NCBI RefSeq assembly: GCF_024399475.1
Contig: NZ_CP101620.1
Span: forward strand, 2,585,608-2,649,607
DNA length: 64,000 nucleotides
From: Allocoprobacillus halotolerans
GTDB taxonomy: Bacteria; Bacillota_I; Bacilli_A; Erysipelotrichales; Coprobacillaceae
Direction: 5' to 3'
A model generated the notes under the pieces. That model searched no databases. It was given only the letters and a program-made list of their open reading frames with translations, and was not told the DNA's origin. Positions 34,510 to 47,195 of this stretch are shown one piece after another (position 1 is the first letter of the stretch; each line of letters opens with the position of its first letter). The position numbers and the translations under genes were made by a program.

Positions 34510-35440
34510 ACTTTTAATTGAGGTTCCCCAACTGTTTCTAAAATTTCATCAACCAGCTGATATGGAGAAATTTTATCCATTTTGGCGTCATATGTCAAAA
34601 TAAAACGGTGAGCTAAGATCATTGGGGCAACATATTGGACATCTTGAGGAATTACATAATCTCGTTCATTTAAGAAAGCATAGGCTTTGGCTGTTTTCAT
34701 AAGGGCTAGAGAACCACGTGGTGATGCACCTTGTTCAATATGAGGATGCTCTCTAGTAGCGGTAATGATTTGCATAATATAATCATAAATATCATCATGT
34801 ACATAAACTTGATCAATCTTTTTTGAAATTCTAAAATCATCTCTGGTGATAATATAGCTTGTATTTCATCTAATGGATTAGATGTTTGACGTTTTTTCAT
34901 TATTTCAATTTCTTCATGAAATTGAGGATAACCTAAGCTTAAACAGCTCATAAAACGATCCATTTGAGAATCAGGTAATAATTGAGTTCCAGCTGAACCA
35001 AATGGATTTTGAGTAGCAATGACACAAAAAGGCTGTGGTAAAATATATGTTTTACCATCTACTGTCATTTGTCCTTCCTCCATTAATTCTAATAAAGCTG
35101 ACTGTGTTTTGCTTGAAGTACGATTCATTTCATCGGCTAATAAAAGATGACAAAAGGCTATTCCTTCTTTATATTCAAATTTTTGTGTTTGAGGATTATA
35201 CATGGTAAACCCAATAATATCACTAGGCATAATATCCGGTGTCAACTGAATACGATGATAGTCAAGCTGTAAGCTTCTTGATAAAGCTAAAGCCAGATTA
35301 GTTTTTCCAACACCAGGAATATCTTCTAATAATATATGTCCTCTAGAAAGAAGAGTCACTAATATTTTTGTAATGACTTCATCCTTTCCAATAACTGCTT
35401 TTTTGATTTCATTGATTGTCTGTTTGATTTCTTGATTCAT
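34506..35440 (-). CDS. MoxR-family AAA+ ATPase, one-base deletion
   Basis: The reconstructed protein has 311 residues. Walker A is EDIPGVGKTNLALAL, Walker B LLADEMNRTSSKTQSALLE, and sensor 1 IATQNP. The frame shifts at six T (plus 34819-34824). One extra base restores the lid domain with ITATREHPHIEQGASPRGSLALMKTAKAYA, the MoxR sensor 2 region. I chose ATG 35440 after GAGGTGG rather than the GTG nine bases earlier. It is the first gene of the operon with DUF58 and the transglutaminase protein, presumably a chaperone-like ATPase for them. Confidence 0.9.
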
Positions 35441-35503
35441 TTCTTCCACCTCATTCTTTCTTTTAGTATAACAGATATACAGTTATTTCAAAATAGACAA
35501 TAA

Positions 35504-35536: not shown

Positions 35537-35855
35537 GATAACCAATAAAAATATGTTCTTCATCAATAAGTAATGGACGTTTAATCAGCATTCCATTTTG
35601 TGACAACAATAAAGCCGCTTCATTTTCATTCATGTCTTGAATTTTATCTTTTAAATTCATTTCACGATAAAGTTTTCCTGATGTATTGAAAAAAGGTTTA
35701 ATGCCTTTTCCATTCTTTTGAATCCAATGAAGTAATTCTGCTTGCGTTGGTGTATCTTTGACAATATCTCTTAATTGAACTTCTATACCCTGTTCTTTTA
35801 ATTTTTTTAATGCTTTTAAACACGTACTACAACGTGGATAATAAATAAATTCCAT
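35514..35855 (-). CDS. ArsC/Spx/MgsR-family thioredoxin-fold protein
   Basis: 113 residues with thioredoxin-like fold: MEFIYYPRCSTCLKALKKLKEQG carries a CxxC pair near the N-terminus. Then come RDIVKDTPTQAELLHWIQ, KPFFNTSGKLYREMNL and LIKRPLLIDEEHIFIGYQ, the standard Spx/ArsC pattern. The CxxC suggests a redox-sensing regulator or an arsenate-reductase-like enzyme; the shortness and the lack of an RNA-polymerase-contact motif that I can judge leave this open. Its ATG overlaps the corrected tex stop by one base (TAATG). Confidence 0.85.
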   Translation of the reverse strand: MEFIYYPRCSTCLKALKKLKEQGIEVQLRDIVKDTPTQAELLHWIQKNGKGIKPFFNTSGKLYREMNLKDKIQDMNENEAALLLSQNGMLIKRPLLIDEEHIFIGYQKEIYEK

Positions 35856-38005
35856 TAAGCCACCTCCAGCAAAGATAAAGCAACTCTTTTTTCTTTAAAT
35901 CAATATCATAAACATAAACATCTAAAATATCTCCAACATTACATACATCCAAAGCGTGTTTAACTTTATGAGTAGACATTTTAGAAATATGCACAAGCCC
36001 ATCATTTTTTAATCCAATGTCAACAAATGCACCAAAGTCAACAACATTTCTAACAACACCTTGTAATTTCATTCCCTTTTTCAAATCTTCAATTTTTAAG
36101 ACATCTTTTCTTAAAACAGGAACGTTATATTCATCACGTGGTGAACGATGCGGAGAAACAAAAGCTTGTATTAAATCATCAACAAGATATGAATCTAAAT
36201 GTAAATCATCTTGAATCTGGCTTGATGGTGTTTCTTCAATGACATCTCGAGCCTGTTTTGAACCTATATCTTCTTTATGTAAATGTAAATATTCTAAAAG
36301 ATTCATAGCATCCTGATAATTATCAGGGTGAATACTTGTTTCATCTAATTTTTCATTTCCTGATAAGATTCTTAAGAATCCTACTGCCAATTCATAAGTC
36401 TTATCACCTAATTTTTTGACATTTTTAATTTGTTCACGAGAAGTGAATTTTCCATGTTCCTCACGATATTGTACAATGTTTTTGGCTGTCGCCATAGAAA
36501 GACCTGAAACATATTGTAATAAGGATGGTGAAGCCGTATTGATATTCACCCCTACTTGATTGACAACTTTTTCTACAACAAAGTCTAATTGTTCAGTGAG
36601 TTTCTTTTGATTCATATCATGTTGATATTGTCCTACAGATATCGCCTTTGGTTCAATTTTAACAAGTTCAGCTAATGGATCTTGTAAACGTCTGGCAATA
36701 GATACAGCAGATCTTTCTTCTACCTGATAATCAGGAAATTCTTCTTTAGCAATTGAACTTGCTGAATAAACACTAGCACCAGCTTCAGATACAATAACAT
36801 ATTGTACATCTAATTGATATTTCTTAATCATTTCAGCAATAAAGTTTTCGGTTTCACGACTAGCTGTTCCATTGCCAATCGCAATAATTTCAATTTGATA
36901 TTTTTGAATCATTGATAATAAGACTTTTTCATCTTTTGTATAATCTTTTTTAGGAATTGTGATAAAGACTTTATCAATATCTAATACCTTTCCTGTTGGA
37001 TCAATAGCGGCTAATTTACATCCTGTTCTAAAAGCGGATCAACACCTAAGACAAATTTATCTTTCATAGGTGCTTGTAATAAAAGACTTTCTAAATTGAT
37101 AGAAAAGACTTTTAATGCCTGTTCTTGCGCTTTTTCAGTTAATTCATGACGGACTTCTCTTTCTACTGAAGGGAAAATCAAACGTTTAAATGCATCTTTA
37201 ACTGTTTCTTCAATAAAAGGTCCTAATGATGATTCACGTCTATGCATCACACCATTATAGATATATTGAATAAAACGATCTGTATCAATGTCAATGGAAA
37301 CAGTTAAAACTTTTTCTTTTTCAGCACGATTGATTGCTAAAATACGATGTGAAGCAATATACTGTACTTTTTCTTGATAATCATAATACATTTCGTAAAT
37401 ACCATCTTCTTCATCTGGATTATTTTTCTTGACATGTGATGATACCATTCCTGTTTTATAAATCATATCTTTTGTATATTTACGATAACGTGGTTCATCA
37501 CTGACTTGTTCAGCAATAATATCTCTTGCACCACTGATAGCTTCTTCAATGGTTAAAACTTGCTCATTTAAATATTTTTGAGCCTCTTTTTTAAATCAAA
37601 AGTTTTAGGTAATTTTAAAATAGCTTGTGCCAAAGGTTCTAATCCTTTTGCCTTTGCCATTGAAGCTTTGGTTTTCTTCTTCTCTTTAAATGGTCTATAA
37701 TAATCTTCTACTTCACTTAATTGAGAAGCTTTTAAAATGTTTTGTTTTAATTCTTCTGTTAATAATCCCTTTTCATCAATTAAACGAATAACATCTTCTT
37801 TACGTTGTTGAAGATTTAATTGATATTCATAAACTTTTGAAATTTCTCTAATCTGATCTTCATTTAATCCACTTGTTTTTTCTTTACGATAACGAGCAAT
37901 AAAAGGAACTGTTGCCCCTTCTTCTAATAAAGTTAATACATTTTGAATTTGTTGATTTGAAATAGACAATTCTTCTGTCATTTTTTGTATAATTTCCTGA
38001 TTCAT
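35855..38005 (-). CDS. tex: RNA-binding transcriptional accessory protein Tex, three one-base deletions
   Basis: Reading across frames gives 717 residues, the normal Tex length. The parts in order are: N-terminal MNQEIIQKMTEELSISNQQIQNVLTLLEEGATVPFIARYRKE; VEDYYRPFKEKKKTKASMAKAKGLEPLA; the YqgF-like core with VLGVDP; helix-hairpin-helix INTASPSLLQYVSGLSMATAK; and the S1 domain MKLQGVVRNVVDFGAFVDIGL ending in LSLLEVA. Frames are lost at six T (37587-37592), four A (37030-37033) and six T (35887-35892). Tex binds nucleic acid and RNA polymerase. Three collapses in one gene could mean true decay, but each is in a homopolymer like the rest. Confidence 0.87.
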
Positions 38006-38052
38006 AAAATCCTCCAATAATAAAAAACACATTGATAAACAATGCATAAAAT

Positions 38053-38139
38053 TGGTGCATCTGATGAGACTCGAACTCACACGGAAATACTTCCACTACC
38101 GCCTGAAGATAGCGTGTCTACCAATTCCACCACAGATGC
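38053..38139 (-). tRNA. tRNA-Leu (anticodon CAG)
   Basis: A class II tRNA with encoded CCA. The acceptor arm is GCATCTG/CAGATGC. The anticodon arm CTATC-TTCAGGC-GGTAG gives CAG, and a long variable arm (TGGAAGTATTTCC) and T arm GTGAG-TTCGAGT-CTCAT follow. Confidence 0.93.
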
Positions 38140-41660: not shown

Positions 41661-41689
41661 AAAAAAATCAAGGTTACCCTTGATTTTTT
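41661..41689. terminator. Bidirectional terminator between NUDIX and surface-protein genes
   Basis: AAAAAATCAAGG-TTAC-CCTTGATTTTTT, a 12-base-pair stem with T tails on both strands. The corrected stop codon of the surface-protein gene lies in it. Confidence 0.9.
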
Positions 41690-43043
41690 CTTTCATAATA
41701 ATCTTTAATTGCTGAAATTGACTTTTTCTTAAAACTTAAGTATAAATATCCCATAACTGCTGTTGATACAACAAATACAGCAGTTGTACCTATAAATACA
41801 TAAGTTAATGTATTATCTCTTTTTCTTCAACTGGTGTATATTTTTGTAATGTACCTTCAGTATCTTCATAAGTGTATAAACCTGATTCACCTACATCATT
41901 CATTAAATAAACAAGTGAATAATGAGATAATGCTTCATTTTCAAATTGCCATCCACTTAACTCAATATCGCCAATCTTAATTGTGCTTGATTTTAAATCT
42001 TCAACACCTTTTAATGAATCAGGAGCATTAACAATAACATATGTTTTCCCATTAACAGTCAAAGTTTGATATTTGCTAATAACTTTTTCATCAGATACTA
42101 TATAAAAATCTTCATTTCCTTTATCATCAGTTAAATACACTAATGATAAATTTAAATCTTTATTAATAAAAGCATCCACTTCTTGACCATCTAATTTTGT
42201 TGTTCCTTTTTCAAAATTTTTAGGCGCTTTAACATCATCTAAAATCCTAACAACACCTAAACTCACATCATTATATTCTGTATATATAAGTGGTGTTTCA
42301 TCGACATGAAAAGTTAAAGTATAAGTTTTCGTGCTTCCATTTTCAGCAGTACAAACCACTTTATATGTAGTATCGCCTACTTTTACACTTTTCGTTCCAG
42401 TACCAGACACTTTTGCTTTACTATCATTTGCTTTTGCACTAATCTTTACCTCAGTTACTGTTCCTGATAAATCAATGTCATATTTAGTTTTACTTGAACT
42501 AAATTTTGGAGATAATGTTCCTTCAGAAACTGATAAACTTGATAAAGTATTATCTTTCGATCTTGTATCTTCAGTAGTAGTATTCGTTTGGTTTGAATTA
42601 CTACTAGAATTATTACTTGATGACGAATTACTATTTGAGGAACTGTTATTACTTGATGAAGAATTGCTTGAAGATTTAATAGTTACAGTTTTACTTACAC
42701 TACTTGTAACTAAAGTTCCATCAATTGTTGCTGTATCAGTAGAAGTATCAGGTGAAACCGTTATTTTTACATTACCTGAACTTCCAGCTTTAATTGATAT
42801 TGTTTGACTAGAAGATCCATTAGCAAAGAAACTACTAGGTGAACAACTACCATTTTCTACACTCACATAAAATTTTCCTCTAATATTAGCTAAACCTGTT
42901 ACGGTCACATTAAAACTTGAATTTGGCGAAACTGAACTTGCACCAGAAATTCCTAATGCATCAGCATTTTTTAAATTTATACCAATTAACAAAGTGAATA
43001 TAGTTATAACTAAACTAAATTTATAAATTAATTTTTTTAACAT
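41674..43043 (-). CDS. Membrane-anchored surface protein with cadherin-like beta-sandwich domain, one-base deletion
   Basis: The reconstructed protein has 456 residues. A signal peptide (LIYKFSLVITIFTLLIGINL) leads to an N-terminal Ig-like beta-sandwich (about 30-115). A Ser/Asn-rich low-complexity linker (about 120-160) follows, then a cadherin-like domain (NTLSSLSVSEGTLSPKFSSSKTKYDIDL). Next is a beta-rich region, and after correction of the five-T run (plus 41820-41824) a C-terminal helix TYVFIGTTAVFVVSTAVMGYLYL with a basic tail. The anchor exists only in the corrected frame. It is 11 bases behind the dockerin-bearing glucosaminidase gene, so the two products probably act together at the surface. 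Confidence 0.8.
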
Positions 43044-43054
43044 CCTATTCTCCT

Positions 43055-44845
43055 TTAAAACAATAATTTTCTTCCCATAATGTGATTTTCAATTGCTATA
43101 TAATCTAATGTAGATACCTTGCCATCTTCATTCACATCTGCTCTTTTTAACTTATCACCTGATAATTTAGAACGTTCCATAATATGATTTTCTATTGCAA
43201 TATAATCTAATGTAGATACCTTACCATCTCCATTCACATCACCTTTTTTATATGTAGGAGTCGTATTATCAGTTGTAACATCAATAGATGAAGAATTACT
43301 TCCCTTAGAAATAATAACAACATTTTTATTACTTATATAAGCATAATTCTTAGAAAATGAATATTCAGATTGTGTTACAATTCCTGTTCTATTAGCATTT
43401 ATAACTGCATCACTTTGAATTTTATAAAAACCATTTGATGAAGAATTGTTTAAATTAATAAACGCATAATTTGATAATACGCCATCTTTCTCAGCTTTGT
43501 ATAAAGTCGTACTACTATTACTAGAACTACTTTTTATATTAGCTTGTGTAAACTGATAATTATAAACATCTTTGATCCCAATTGTATATTTAAAAGAATC
43601 CTTATATCCAAAATATTCATCTAATTTCCATGCATAATGAGCAGCTTTTTCTCCCCAATATGGATCAGAAGCATATTTCAAATTAACACCACTTGCTTTA
43701 TCACCTAAGTAATTTCCATGATATTTCCAATTAGTTGGATTAGAATACTGTTTAGACATAAAAGAACTAGTATGATAATAGATACTAAATGATGGTGTAG
43801 AATATTTGTTAGCACTTCCATTAGGATCACTATCATAAGCCTCATGTCCAAATAAATTATTTTTATTTTGGGCAATACTACTCGTTCCCCATGCACTTTC
43901 ATTAATAGCTATTCCTAAAGTCATCATAGCATTTACACCATATTTATTTTGATTTTCTATTAAACTTTGACCAAGATTACGTAATTTTGAATTAGAACTA
44001 GTATTTTTGTTAATAAATTCATTAAGTTGATTAGCAGTATATACCGATTGACTTCTCTGTGGTAAATATTGATAATAATTATAATATGGATTATTAGGAT
44101 TTACAGAATTTTTTCTTGTATCATTTCTATAATCGTTTAACATAACAATGTATCCATTTGTATTATCATAATCATAAAAATAATGTCCATCATAGCTGTA
44201 ATATTGTTTACCCTCTTTTAAATAAGATGGTTTTGGTCCTACATCTAAATTAGATGAATAATTTTTACTTGACAAATTTGTCACAATACCATGATACAAT
44301 CTTCCATTTTTAACATAGTATTTACTCAATGTTTGAACAGCGGAATCACTGAAATCTAAAACTTGAACTTCACTTGCATTTACCCATCCAATCACTCCTG
44401 CAAGCATAAATTTAACTTTTGTTCTATCACTATTATGTCCTAAATAAGCCGCATCCGCAGCATATGTTCCATTTGTATAACCCTCACGACCTGTACTATC
44501 TTCAACATAAAGTGTATTAGAACCAGAAGATTTTGTTCTAAAATTAACTACTCCTCTTTCTTTTAATATATCATCTCTTGAAACAGCTGATCTAAATTTA
44601 TATTTTAAAGGTTCTTCAACGATAATTCCTGATTCTTCTAATTCTTCATCATCAACGATGACAGTATTTCCATTTTCATCAATTTTTGTAAAAATTGCAT
44701 TCTCAGATAACTGTTCAGTAGCGTATGTATTTTCACCCTCATCCTCAGCCTCTACCTGATTTTGATTAGATATATTTATAAATAACCCCATAACTAATGT
44801 TAAAGAGATAACTAACATGCTTAATTGAAAAAATTTTTTCCTCAT
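43055..44845 (-). CDS. Secreted glucosaminidase (GH73) with C-terminal dockerin
   Basis: 596 residues from ATG 44845 (MRKKFFQLSMLVISLTLVMG, signal peptide), with AAGGGGTG upstream. An SH3-like region lies at about 80-170. The GH73 N-acetylglucosaminidase core has the catalytic Glu in GIAINESAWGTSSIAQNKNNLFG near residue 315. A Ser-rich spacer follows. The last 65 residues are a type I dockerin: two calcium-binding repeats GDVNGDGKVSTLDYIAIENH and ADVNEDGKVSTLDYIAIENH. The enzyme cleaves peptidoglycan glycan strands, and the dockerin should tether it to a cohesin-type partner. First gene of a two-gene operon. Confidence 0.9.
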   Translation of the reverse strand: MRKKFFQLSMLVISLTLVMGLFINISNQNQVEAEDEGENTYATEQLSENAIFTKIDENGNTVIVDDEELEESGIIVEEPLKYKFRSAVSRDDILKERGVVNFRTKSSGSNTLYVEDSTGREGYTNGTYAADAAYLGHNSDRTKVKFMLAGVIGWVNASEVQVLDFSDSAVQTLSKYYVKNGRLYHGIVTNLSSKNYSSNLDVGPKPSYLKEGKQYYSYDGHYFYDYDNTNGYIVMLNDYRNDTRKNSVNPNNPYYNYYQYLPQRSQSVYTANQLNEFINKNTSSNSKLRNLGQSLIENQNKYGVNAMMTLGIAINESAWGTSSIAQNKNNLFGHEAYDSDPNGSANKYSTPSFSIYYHTSSFMSKQYSNPTNWKYHGNYLGDKASGVNLKYASDPYWGEKAAHYAWKLDEYFGYKDSFKYTIGIKDVYNYQFTQANIKSSSSNSSTTLYKAEKDGVLSNYAFINLNNSSSNGFYKIQSDAVINANRTGIVTQSEYSFSKNYAYISNKNVVIISKGSNSSSIDVTTDNTTPTYKKGDVNGDGKVSTLDYIAIENHIMERSKLSGDKLKRADVNEDGKVSTLDYIAIENHIMGRKLLF

Positions 44846-44978
44846 TTCAACACCCCTTCTTTCATTGCATTTCATCAAAATTATATATGAAGTACATCCA
44901 AAATTCAATTCATTTTCTTCTATTTTCATACAAAAAAATGAATTTTATAACAAAATTCCCATAATATGTTATAAAATG

Positions 44979-45970: not shown

Positions 45971-47195
45971 TTAAAAAGAAATCAGTTCATTAAAAACTTG
46001 AATAATAAATGCATCACTCATACCTGCTAAATAATCTATAATACTTTTTTCTAAGGCTTGTTGATCATGATGAAAATCATAAATGATTTGATTTTTATAT
46101 ATATTTTGTCTAGGATATTGAGGAATATCAGCATATTTTTCTAACCAAGTTAAATAATGTCCGATTAGTTTTGGATATTGTTTTAAATCTTGTTTTAAAG
46201 CTTGGATAAAATCATCATGCTCTTTATAGTCATATAAAAATTCAAATATAGAATGTAAAATCAAGGAAACATATTTTTCATGAATCTGTACTCTTTTAAT
46301 TAAATAAATGTTTTGATAATTAAATTTCATAATCACTTTCATTTTATCAAATGCTTCTTGTGATAAGCCAATCCCTTTTTCTACTGATGAATTTTCAACG
46401 ACATCATGAATAAAATAATTGACAACAGATCCATTATTAATCGCATGAAACTGATAAGAACCCATTTGATTCAATTCATTTCTTAATTCATCAATTTGTG
46501 ATTGAGATAATACATTTAGTCTCAAAGCATCTTCAATATCTCTAGCTAAATAAGCAATTTTATCTGCCATTTTTACAACACACCCTTCATATGTCCAAGG
46601 GTTATATTCTCCAGCATATTGATAATCATTGAGATTAATATAATTATCTCTTTTTTGAATATATTTTTGGTTCATTTCACCACAATGAGAAATAATACCA
46701 TCACGTACAGCATATGTTAAATTGAGATTATGTTGATTATGATTGTTATCTTCTAATAATTCAATGTGATCAACAAAATGCAAACTATTTTTTTCATGCC
46801 AGAATTTATGTAAATGATGAGTTTTAGCTATTTCTGTTAAAATTTTTTCACCACCATGACCAAAAGGAGCATGGCCTAAATCGTGTCCTACTGCAATAGC
46901 TTTTGTTAATTCAGTATTTAATCCAAGTTGATGAGCAATTGTATAAGAAATAGATTCAACCAAATTGACATGTTCACTACGTGTACAAACATGATCATCT
47001 TCTACTGCAAAAAAACTTGTGTTTTATGTTTTAAACGTCGATATGCCTGAGAAAAAATAATACGTGTATAATCCCTAGCAAAATCACTTCTTAAATCATA
47101 TCTTCTTTGATATATATCTTCATTTCGTTGAATAGCTTTTTGATAATCTGGATGTTCTTCAAACATTCCATAACCTTCAAATTTCTTTTTTCCAT
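45971..47195 (-). CDS. dgt: dGTP triphosphohydrolase-family HD protein, two one-base deletions
   Basis: The reconstructed protein has 408 residues. ATG 47195 (MEKKKFEGYGMFEEH) follows AGAGGT. Frames break at six T (47186-47191) and seven A (47009-47015). The corrected text reads [44 protein letters not shown], then the HD metal motif GHDLGHAPFGHGGE. DKIAYLARDIEDA is the second metal-binding part. The family removes triphosphate from dGTP or related dNTPs, as hexamers. Both breaks lie in homopolymers near the 5' end. Confidence 0.85.

Follow-up and report, generated by a model that had tools for sequence, protein, structure and literature searches.

Allocoprobacillus halotolerans carries a secreted glucosaminidase that ends in a dockerin, a module that needs a partner. 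The question raised by this locus is where that partner is encoded. The window analysed here is the whole stretch of 64,000 nucleotides from contig NZ_CP101620.1 (positions 2,585,608 to 2,649,607 of the forward strand), and all coordinates refer to it. The evidence points to the product of the adjacent gene, the N-terminal domain of which is very likely a small and strongly diverged cohesin.

The enzyme and its dockerin

Gene 1 has the following features.

43055-44845, (-) strand: gene 1, 596 aa, secreted GH73 glucosaminidase ending in a type I dockerin (scores for Pfam Glucosaminidase and Dockerin_1 well exceed the cut-offs)
43628-43969, (-) strand: GH73 catalytic domain, residues 293-406 (Pfam Glucosaminidase, 59.6 bits)
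43079-43246, (-) strand: type I dockerin, residues 534-589 (Dockerin_1, PF00404, 53.3 bits against a cut-off of 22.9)

The two Pfam matches bear out the preliminary description of this protein as a GH73 enzyme ending in a full, two-repeat type I dockerin. An alternative start, an in-frame ATG, lies at 44929. The candidate catalytic residue, Glu316 in the motif context INESAWG, is aligned with a LytB-type enzyme and is almost invariant in an alignment of 74 dockerin-bearing neighbours of gene 2 homologues. The best solved relatives of the protein are GH73 enzymes, including 4q2w and 7pj3, and the alignment spans the catalytic-Glu motif and the region preceding it. With its GH73 domain and conserved catalytic Glu, the protein belongs to the GH73, LytB-like enzymes.

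The dockerin consists of two calcium-binding loop-helix repeats, DVNGDGKVSTLDYIAIENHIM and DVNEDGKVSTLDYIAIENHIM, which fit PF00404 and make it a type I dockerin. Asp occupies positions 1, 5 and 12 of both loops, and the same recognition helix, STLDYIAIENHIM, is present in both repeats. An identical helix in both repeats permits two binding orientations in known dockerin systems (PMC5429695), and by analogy two-way binding is predicted for the gene 1 dockerin.

The neighbouring anchor gene

The second gene follows on the same strand, and its features are listed in the order of transcription.

43044-43054, (-) strand: 11-base spacer between gene 1 and gene 2, counted from TAA to ATG, containing the ribosome-binding sequence AGGAG
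41805-43043, (-) strand: gene 2, encoding the surface anchor protein; a frameshift shortens the annotated frame to 412 aa; single copy in the genome
42957-43043, (-) strand: signal peptide, about residues 1-29, MLKKLIYKFSLVITIFTLLIGINLKNADA (from the sequence; hydrophobic segment conserved in 23 aligned homologues)
42678-42956, (-) strand: N-terminal beta-sandwich (N-domain), residues 30-122, proposed compact cohesin (AlphaFold, profile link, dockerin linkage)
42558-42677, (-) strand: flexible linker rich in Ser and Asn, about residues 123-162 (from the sequence; length varies among homologues)
42306-42545, (-) strand: cadherin-like beta-sandwich, residues 167-246 (PF12733, 38.8 bits)
41832-42296, (-) strand: conserved C-terminal extracellular region, residues 250-404 (no Pfam match; conserved among homologues)
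41674-41820, (-) strand: membrane-spanning helix with a short, basic tail in the cytoplasm, DNTLTYVFIGTTAVFVVSTAVMGYLYLSFKKKSISAIKDYYERKNQG, shifted to the -1 frame with respect to gene 2 (in frame in the homologues L027, L028 and L029)
41668-41692, (-) strand: probable terminator, ATCAAGG GTAA CCTTGAT followed by a T run (read from the sequence; absent from the automatic terminator matches)

The gap between the genes is exactly 11 bases, as had been reported, and the order of parts previously read from gene 2 (signal peptide, N-terminal beta-sandwich, Ser/Asn linker and cadherin-like domain) agrees with the sequence, the AlphaFold model and Pfam.

Dockerins, cohesins and related loci

A search of the genome for cohesins and further dockerins, proposed in the preliminary description, gave a simple inventory. 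The single-contig genome (2.93 Mb) contains one Pfam dockerin, one gene 2 and one N-domain of the gene 2 kind; a Pfam cohesin (PF00963) is found nowhere in it, nor in 15 of the 16 family genomes that carry the gene pair. This inventory is not that of a cellulosome, which was rejected because there is no scaffoldin. The suggestion that the pair acts outside the cellulosome context thus agrees with the absence of a multi-cohesin scaffoldin and the presence of only one dockerin in the genome, where a cellulosome would have several dockerin-bearing hydrolases of plant polysaccharides.

Homologues of gene 2 were gathered from genomes of the family and of the order and from a named collection of genomes; Massilimicrobiota, Longibaculum, Stoquefichus, Merdibacter, Traorella and Breznakia are among the genera represented. 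Linkage was counted over 96 distinct homologues, all with an N-domain and with sufficient sequence upstream. A dockerin-bearing gene lies directly upstream on the same strand in 88 of them. Five more have an adjacent dockerin gene: in L065-L068 it is directly downstream, and in L180 it is upstream and encodes a divergent dockerin, missed by the dockerin model used for the count. At the remaining three loci (L082, L096 and L104, from Lachnospiraceae) a dockerin was not detected and the cohesin-like N-domain is kept, which counts against the pairing. The N-domain protein of these three stands beside an SH3/cadherin-like protein, and the dockerin is either lost or unrecognisable. On the best reading, the dockerin/gene 2 unit is widespread in Erysipelotrichales.

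The constant element of the upstream partner is the dockerin, while the type of enzyme changes. Among the 74 partners scanned, 33 are GH73 enzymes, four are GH25 enzymes, four have a metallo-beta-lactamase fold, and the others are unassigned. The metallo-beta-lactamase group, found beside the gene 2 homologues L032, L035, L041 and L043, consists of secreted, ComEC-tail-like proteins fused to a dockerin, and represents an unusual client. Some anchors have more than one dockerin protein in their vicinity. An M6-peptidase-like protein with Big domains is encoded just downstream at L033 (9087-11999), and its dockerin and the one on the GH73 enzyme next to it are near-identical, so that this anchor may serve two enzymes. 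A GH25 lysozyme with a dockerin (L036, 1229-2425) lies about 5 kb from a GH73-dockerin/anchor pair and probably uses that anchor as well.

Three gene 2 homologues (L045, L046 and L047) lack the N-domain, and none of these few has a dockerin gene nearby. Two of them, L045 and L046, occupy the same syntenic place as the pair in the window, after dgt and metA; at this orthologous locus, then, a gene 2 homologue has either both the N-domain and a neighbouring dockerin gene or neither of them. As partner of the dockerin, the C-terminal region of the gene 2 protein was considered and rejected, because the homologues that keep this region without the N-domain have no dockerin gene.

Relationship of the N-domain to cohesins

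The N-domain is longer in distant homologues, and 24 of 26 such domains match the Pfam Cohesin family PF00963 (best E 1.3e-9). A profile built from these distant cohesin-like N-domains retrieves cohesins of the PDB. The short N-domain of the window has no significant direct match to PF00963; when gene 2 alone was compared with Pfam, NCBIfam and PDB sequences, the cadherin-like domain was the sole match, and a profile of short N-domains gave only weak, chance-level matches in the PDB.

The short and the long forms are connected by profile comparison. Their N-domain profiles align with a probability of 97.6% over 96 columns (hhalign), and the controls, for which the cadherin-like domain and the C-terminal domain of these proteins were taken, stay below 8%. 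An iterated search was started from the cohesin-like N-domains in a database of 1609 ORFs that included other Ig-like domains, and matches at E < 0.001 were added in each round. The first cohesin-like profile scores the window domain only at E 3.5. By the fifth round the profile reaches it, with a final E of 1.2e-11 over residues 29-122. Stray matches among the 1609 ORFs were zero: every match falls on one of these N-domains, including one that belongs to a truncated homologue. Homology of the window N-domain to cohesins is therefore well supported by the sequence profiles, via a chain of intermediates only.

Structure models describe the same domain from another side. The AlphaFold model of the N-domain is an eight-stranded sandwich (pLDDT 95.4, pTM 0.85), and the structure prediction suggested earlier accordingly gave a confident fold; the PDB structures that match it best have generic Ig folds and are not cohesins. 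Foldseek and VIA-align place generic Ig-like folds first (the chaperone FimC, MSP and GH2 domains) with Z of about 9-10; cohesins are not among the matches listed, and their absence there is no evidence against a cohesin fold. The model has eight strands versus the nine of the cohesin sandwich. In our reading the N-domain is a cohesin from which a central portion of the fold has been lost, something that the fold comparison alone does not prove. The earlier term 'Ig-like' is thus correct as a description of the fold, but the equivalent slot in distant relatives is occupied by a Pfam cohesin.

The preliminary description had also called for a model of the complex. As a proxy for docking, a single chain was modelled from the dockerin and the N-domain of the homologue L026, the stop codon being read through. 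Compared with the window, L026 has a gene 2 that is 57% identical and a nearly identical dockerin. Each domain of the fused chain is folded, but the alignment was shallow and included a signal peptide, the relative placement of the domains is not confident, and with a pTM of 0.44 no docking pose can be claimed.

Co-variation of the dockerin and the N-domain

For 88 pairs, and for a close set of 43 homologues, distance matrices were compared between the dockerin and two parts of gene 2, the N-domain and the C-terminal part. Shared ancestry inflates such statistics; the control is the comparison with the C-terminal part. Once this part is controlled for, N-domain and dockerin show a partial correlation of 0.53 over all 88 pairs and of 0.64 in the close set, values that none of 999 permutations reaches. 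In the close set the dockerin has a partial correlation of 0.64 with the N-domain versus 0.11 with the C-terminal part given the N-domain.

These results bear on the main alternative, which makes the N-domain a generic Ig-like module for spacing or wall binding and lets the dockerin find its partner elsewhere: in the C-terminal region of gene 2, in an unrecognised receptor or in cohesins of other gut bacteria. It would account for the ordinary Ig-like folds among the best structural matches, for the lack of a Pfam cohesin match by the window domain itself and for the failure of the fused model to dock. It is nevertheless unlikely, since the dockerin co-varies with the N-domain and hardly with the C-terminal part, since homologues with the C-terminal region and no N-domain have no dockerin gene at the same locus, and since the iterated cohesin profile reaches the window domain specifically. 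The identification of the neighbour's beta-sandwich as a divergent cohesin, proposed in the preliminary description, gains support from the profile chain, the linkage to dockerins, their joint absence and the co-variation. The outcome to be set against it was a canonical cohesin elsewhere in the genome and a neighbour without cohesin likeness; the genome has zero Pfam cohesins, and the profile chain leads from the neighbour to cohesins.

The membrane anchor and the frameshift

The annotated frame of gene 2 stops at 41805 after ...PVEEKEIIH, and the -1 frame runs on through the membrane helix to a stop at 41674. This -1 frame tail matches the intact C-termini of three homologues from the same genus. 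It had been noted that the anchor appears only after frame correction; the helix is indeed out of frame here, but the shift is probably an assembly or sequencing indel, because tex (in three ORFs, 35827-38080) and dgt (in two, 45971-47166) are also broken by frame changes in the same window. The assembly seems, from these breaks, to carry many single-base indels. A MoxR-type ATPase ORF (34706-35449) has an unrelated-looking tail, probably from a further frame change.

Alternatively, gene 2 could be a true pseudogene here, or it could be subject to phase variation, the protein and its enzyme being set free in the out-of-frame state; either would be compatible with the tether proposed below. The one-base shift lies in an A-rich stretch just before the membrane helix, and the frame downstream of it is undecayed, as such a switch would have it; yet the A run at the shift has only five A, the anchors of relatives are intact, and the breaks in tex and dgt point to assembly indels, so that this explanation is very unlikely. 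Programmed frameshifting at the anchor was rejected, given that the relatives are in frame and other genes of the window are broken too.

Apparent joint exchange of dockerin and N-domain

Individual pairs of loci illustrate how the two domains vary together. L027 and L028, from the same genus, are 87% identical in the catalytic part and 86% in the C-terminal part, versus 44% in the dockerin and 36% in the N-domain. The reverse is seen between L028 and L034, which belong to different genera: the dockerin and the N-domain are 58% and 57% identical, the catalytic part 43% and the C-terminal part 50%. The difference between L027 and L028 is, judged by these identities, an apparent block swap of the dockerin plus the N-domain.

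At the level of residues, co-variation with the N-domain exceeds that with the C-terminal part chiefly at positions 10, 11, 17, 18 and 22 of the dockerin, which we take to be the usual type I dockerin recognition set. The p-values for this excess (0.0001 for all pairs, 0.008 for the close set) are only indicative, because the set was fixed after a first look at the ranking. Contacts of the dockerin helix have been described at positions 11 and 15 (PMC5429695), and recognition residues have been predicted at 10 and 17 (PMC5590126).

That the two genes merely form a co-transferred block or share an operon, their co-variation arising from linkage and not from physical contact, is very unlikely: the two domains are neighbours on the DNA, coded about 100 bp apart, so that block transfer could yield part of the co-variation, and the swap between L027 and L028 is of this kind, but the signal peptide encoded between them does not follow the dockerin (partial correlation -0.12 in the close set), which makes simple block transfer less plausible as a sole explanation, and the excess sits at positions that contact cohesins in known complexes.

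A proposed surface tether

The two genes probably encode a minimal surface tether, of one cohesin and one dockerin, for peptidoglycan hydrolases. The GH73 enzyme would be secreted, and its C-terminal dockerin would bind the N-terminal beta-sandwich of the gene 2 protein, taken to be a small cohesin that has diverged strongly; as it does for known dockerins, the binding may depend on calcium. The Ser/Asn linker, the cadherin-like domain and the further conserved domain would hold this socket off the membrane, in which the protein would be fixed by its C-terminal helix. The enzyme would thereby be kept at the cell's own wall, the partner protein taking the place of the wall-binding repeats of LytB-type enzymes. 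Peptidoglycan is the presumed substrate of the GH73 domain, and a role in wall turnover or in the separation of daughter cells can be envisaged.

A more general proposal, which we consider fairly likely, is that the N-domains form a class of compact, Ig-like cohesins of about 90 residues that are invisible to Pfam. They would form one-to-one pairs with dockerins in gut Erysipelotrichales, hold peptidoglycan hydrolases and other enzymes on the bacterium's own membrane, and repeatedly switch specificity by joint exchange of dockerin and cohesin at a fixed chromosomal locus.

Comparison with known systems

The gene pair is filed here with the cohesin-dockerin systems, as neither a cellulosome nor a direct match to the Pfam cohesin. 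It shares with the cellulosomal type I pairs of Clostridium, Acetivibrio and Ruminococcus the canonical two-repeat dockerin, a secreted beta-sandwich partner related to Pfam Cohesin, and co-variation at the same dockerin helix positions. Unlike cellulosomes, it has one cohesin per anchor, no multi-cohesin scaffoldin and no cellulose-binding module, and its clients are predicted to be mainly peptidoglycan hydrolases. The cohesin has about 93 aa and no Pfam match, whereas those of cellulosomes have about 140.

The structure 4q2w, presumably that of pneumococcal LytB, is similar to gene 1 in its GH73 domain with the same catalytic-Glu context and in the region preceding this domain, which aligns as well. 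LytB holds the wall through its own choline-binding repeats; the enzyme described here would instead use a dockerin and a separate anchor.

Lachnoclostridium sp. MSJ-17, presumed to be non-cellulolytic, has single-cohesin proteins with a C-terminal transmembrane helix (PMC11557425). Common to both systems is one cohesin on a membrane-anchored protein of Bacillota; Lachnoclostridium differs in that its cohesins are recognised by HMMs, that it has up to 39 dockerin proteins and that no dedicated adjacent partner gene is described (PMC11557425). That survey would miss proteins of the gene 2 type because multi-cohesin proteins and HMM hits were required. Assembly by cohesins and dockerins on substrates other than cellulose is reported from gut bacteria for the Limousia mucinolysome (PMC12997984) and the Ruminococcus bromii amylosome (PMC9112005); these are multi-enzyme complexes that act on mucin or starch, unlike the single pair found here. 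No earlier description of a two-gene unit of a dockerin enzyme and its anchor was found in the freely available literature that was searched.

If the proposal is true, it would explain the 'orphan' dockerins of non-cellulolytic gut Bacillota that have no recognisable cohesins. Cohesins could then shrink to Ig-like domains that are overlooked by family models, and the cohesin-dockerin system would extend from the digestion of plant fibre to regulating the wall of the cell itself. The pairs swapped in nature would offer a ready set of small, orthogonal binding pairs, the specificity of which is directly testable. The canonical two-gene layout, with adjacent dockerin and cohesin ORFs that are both recognised by Pfam, is seen in other genomes of the family (G011:C9:45430-46038 and G012:C5:75649-76260).
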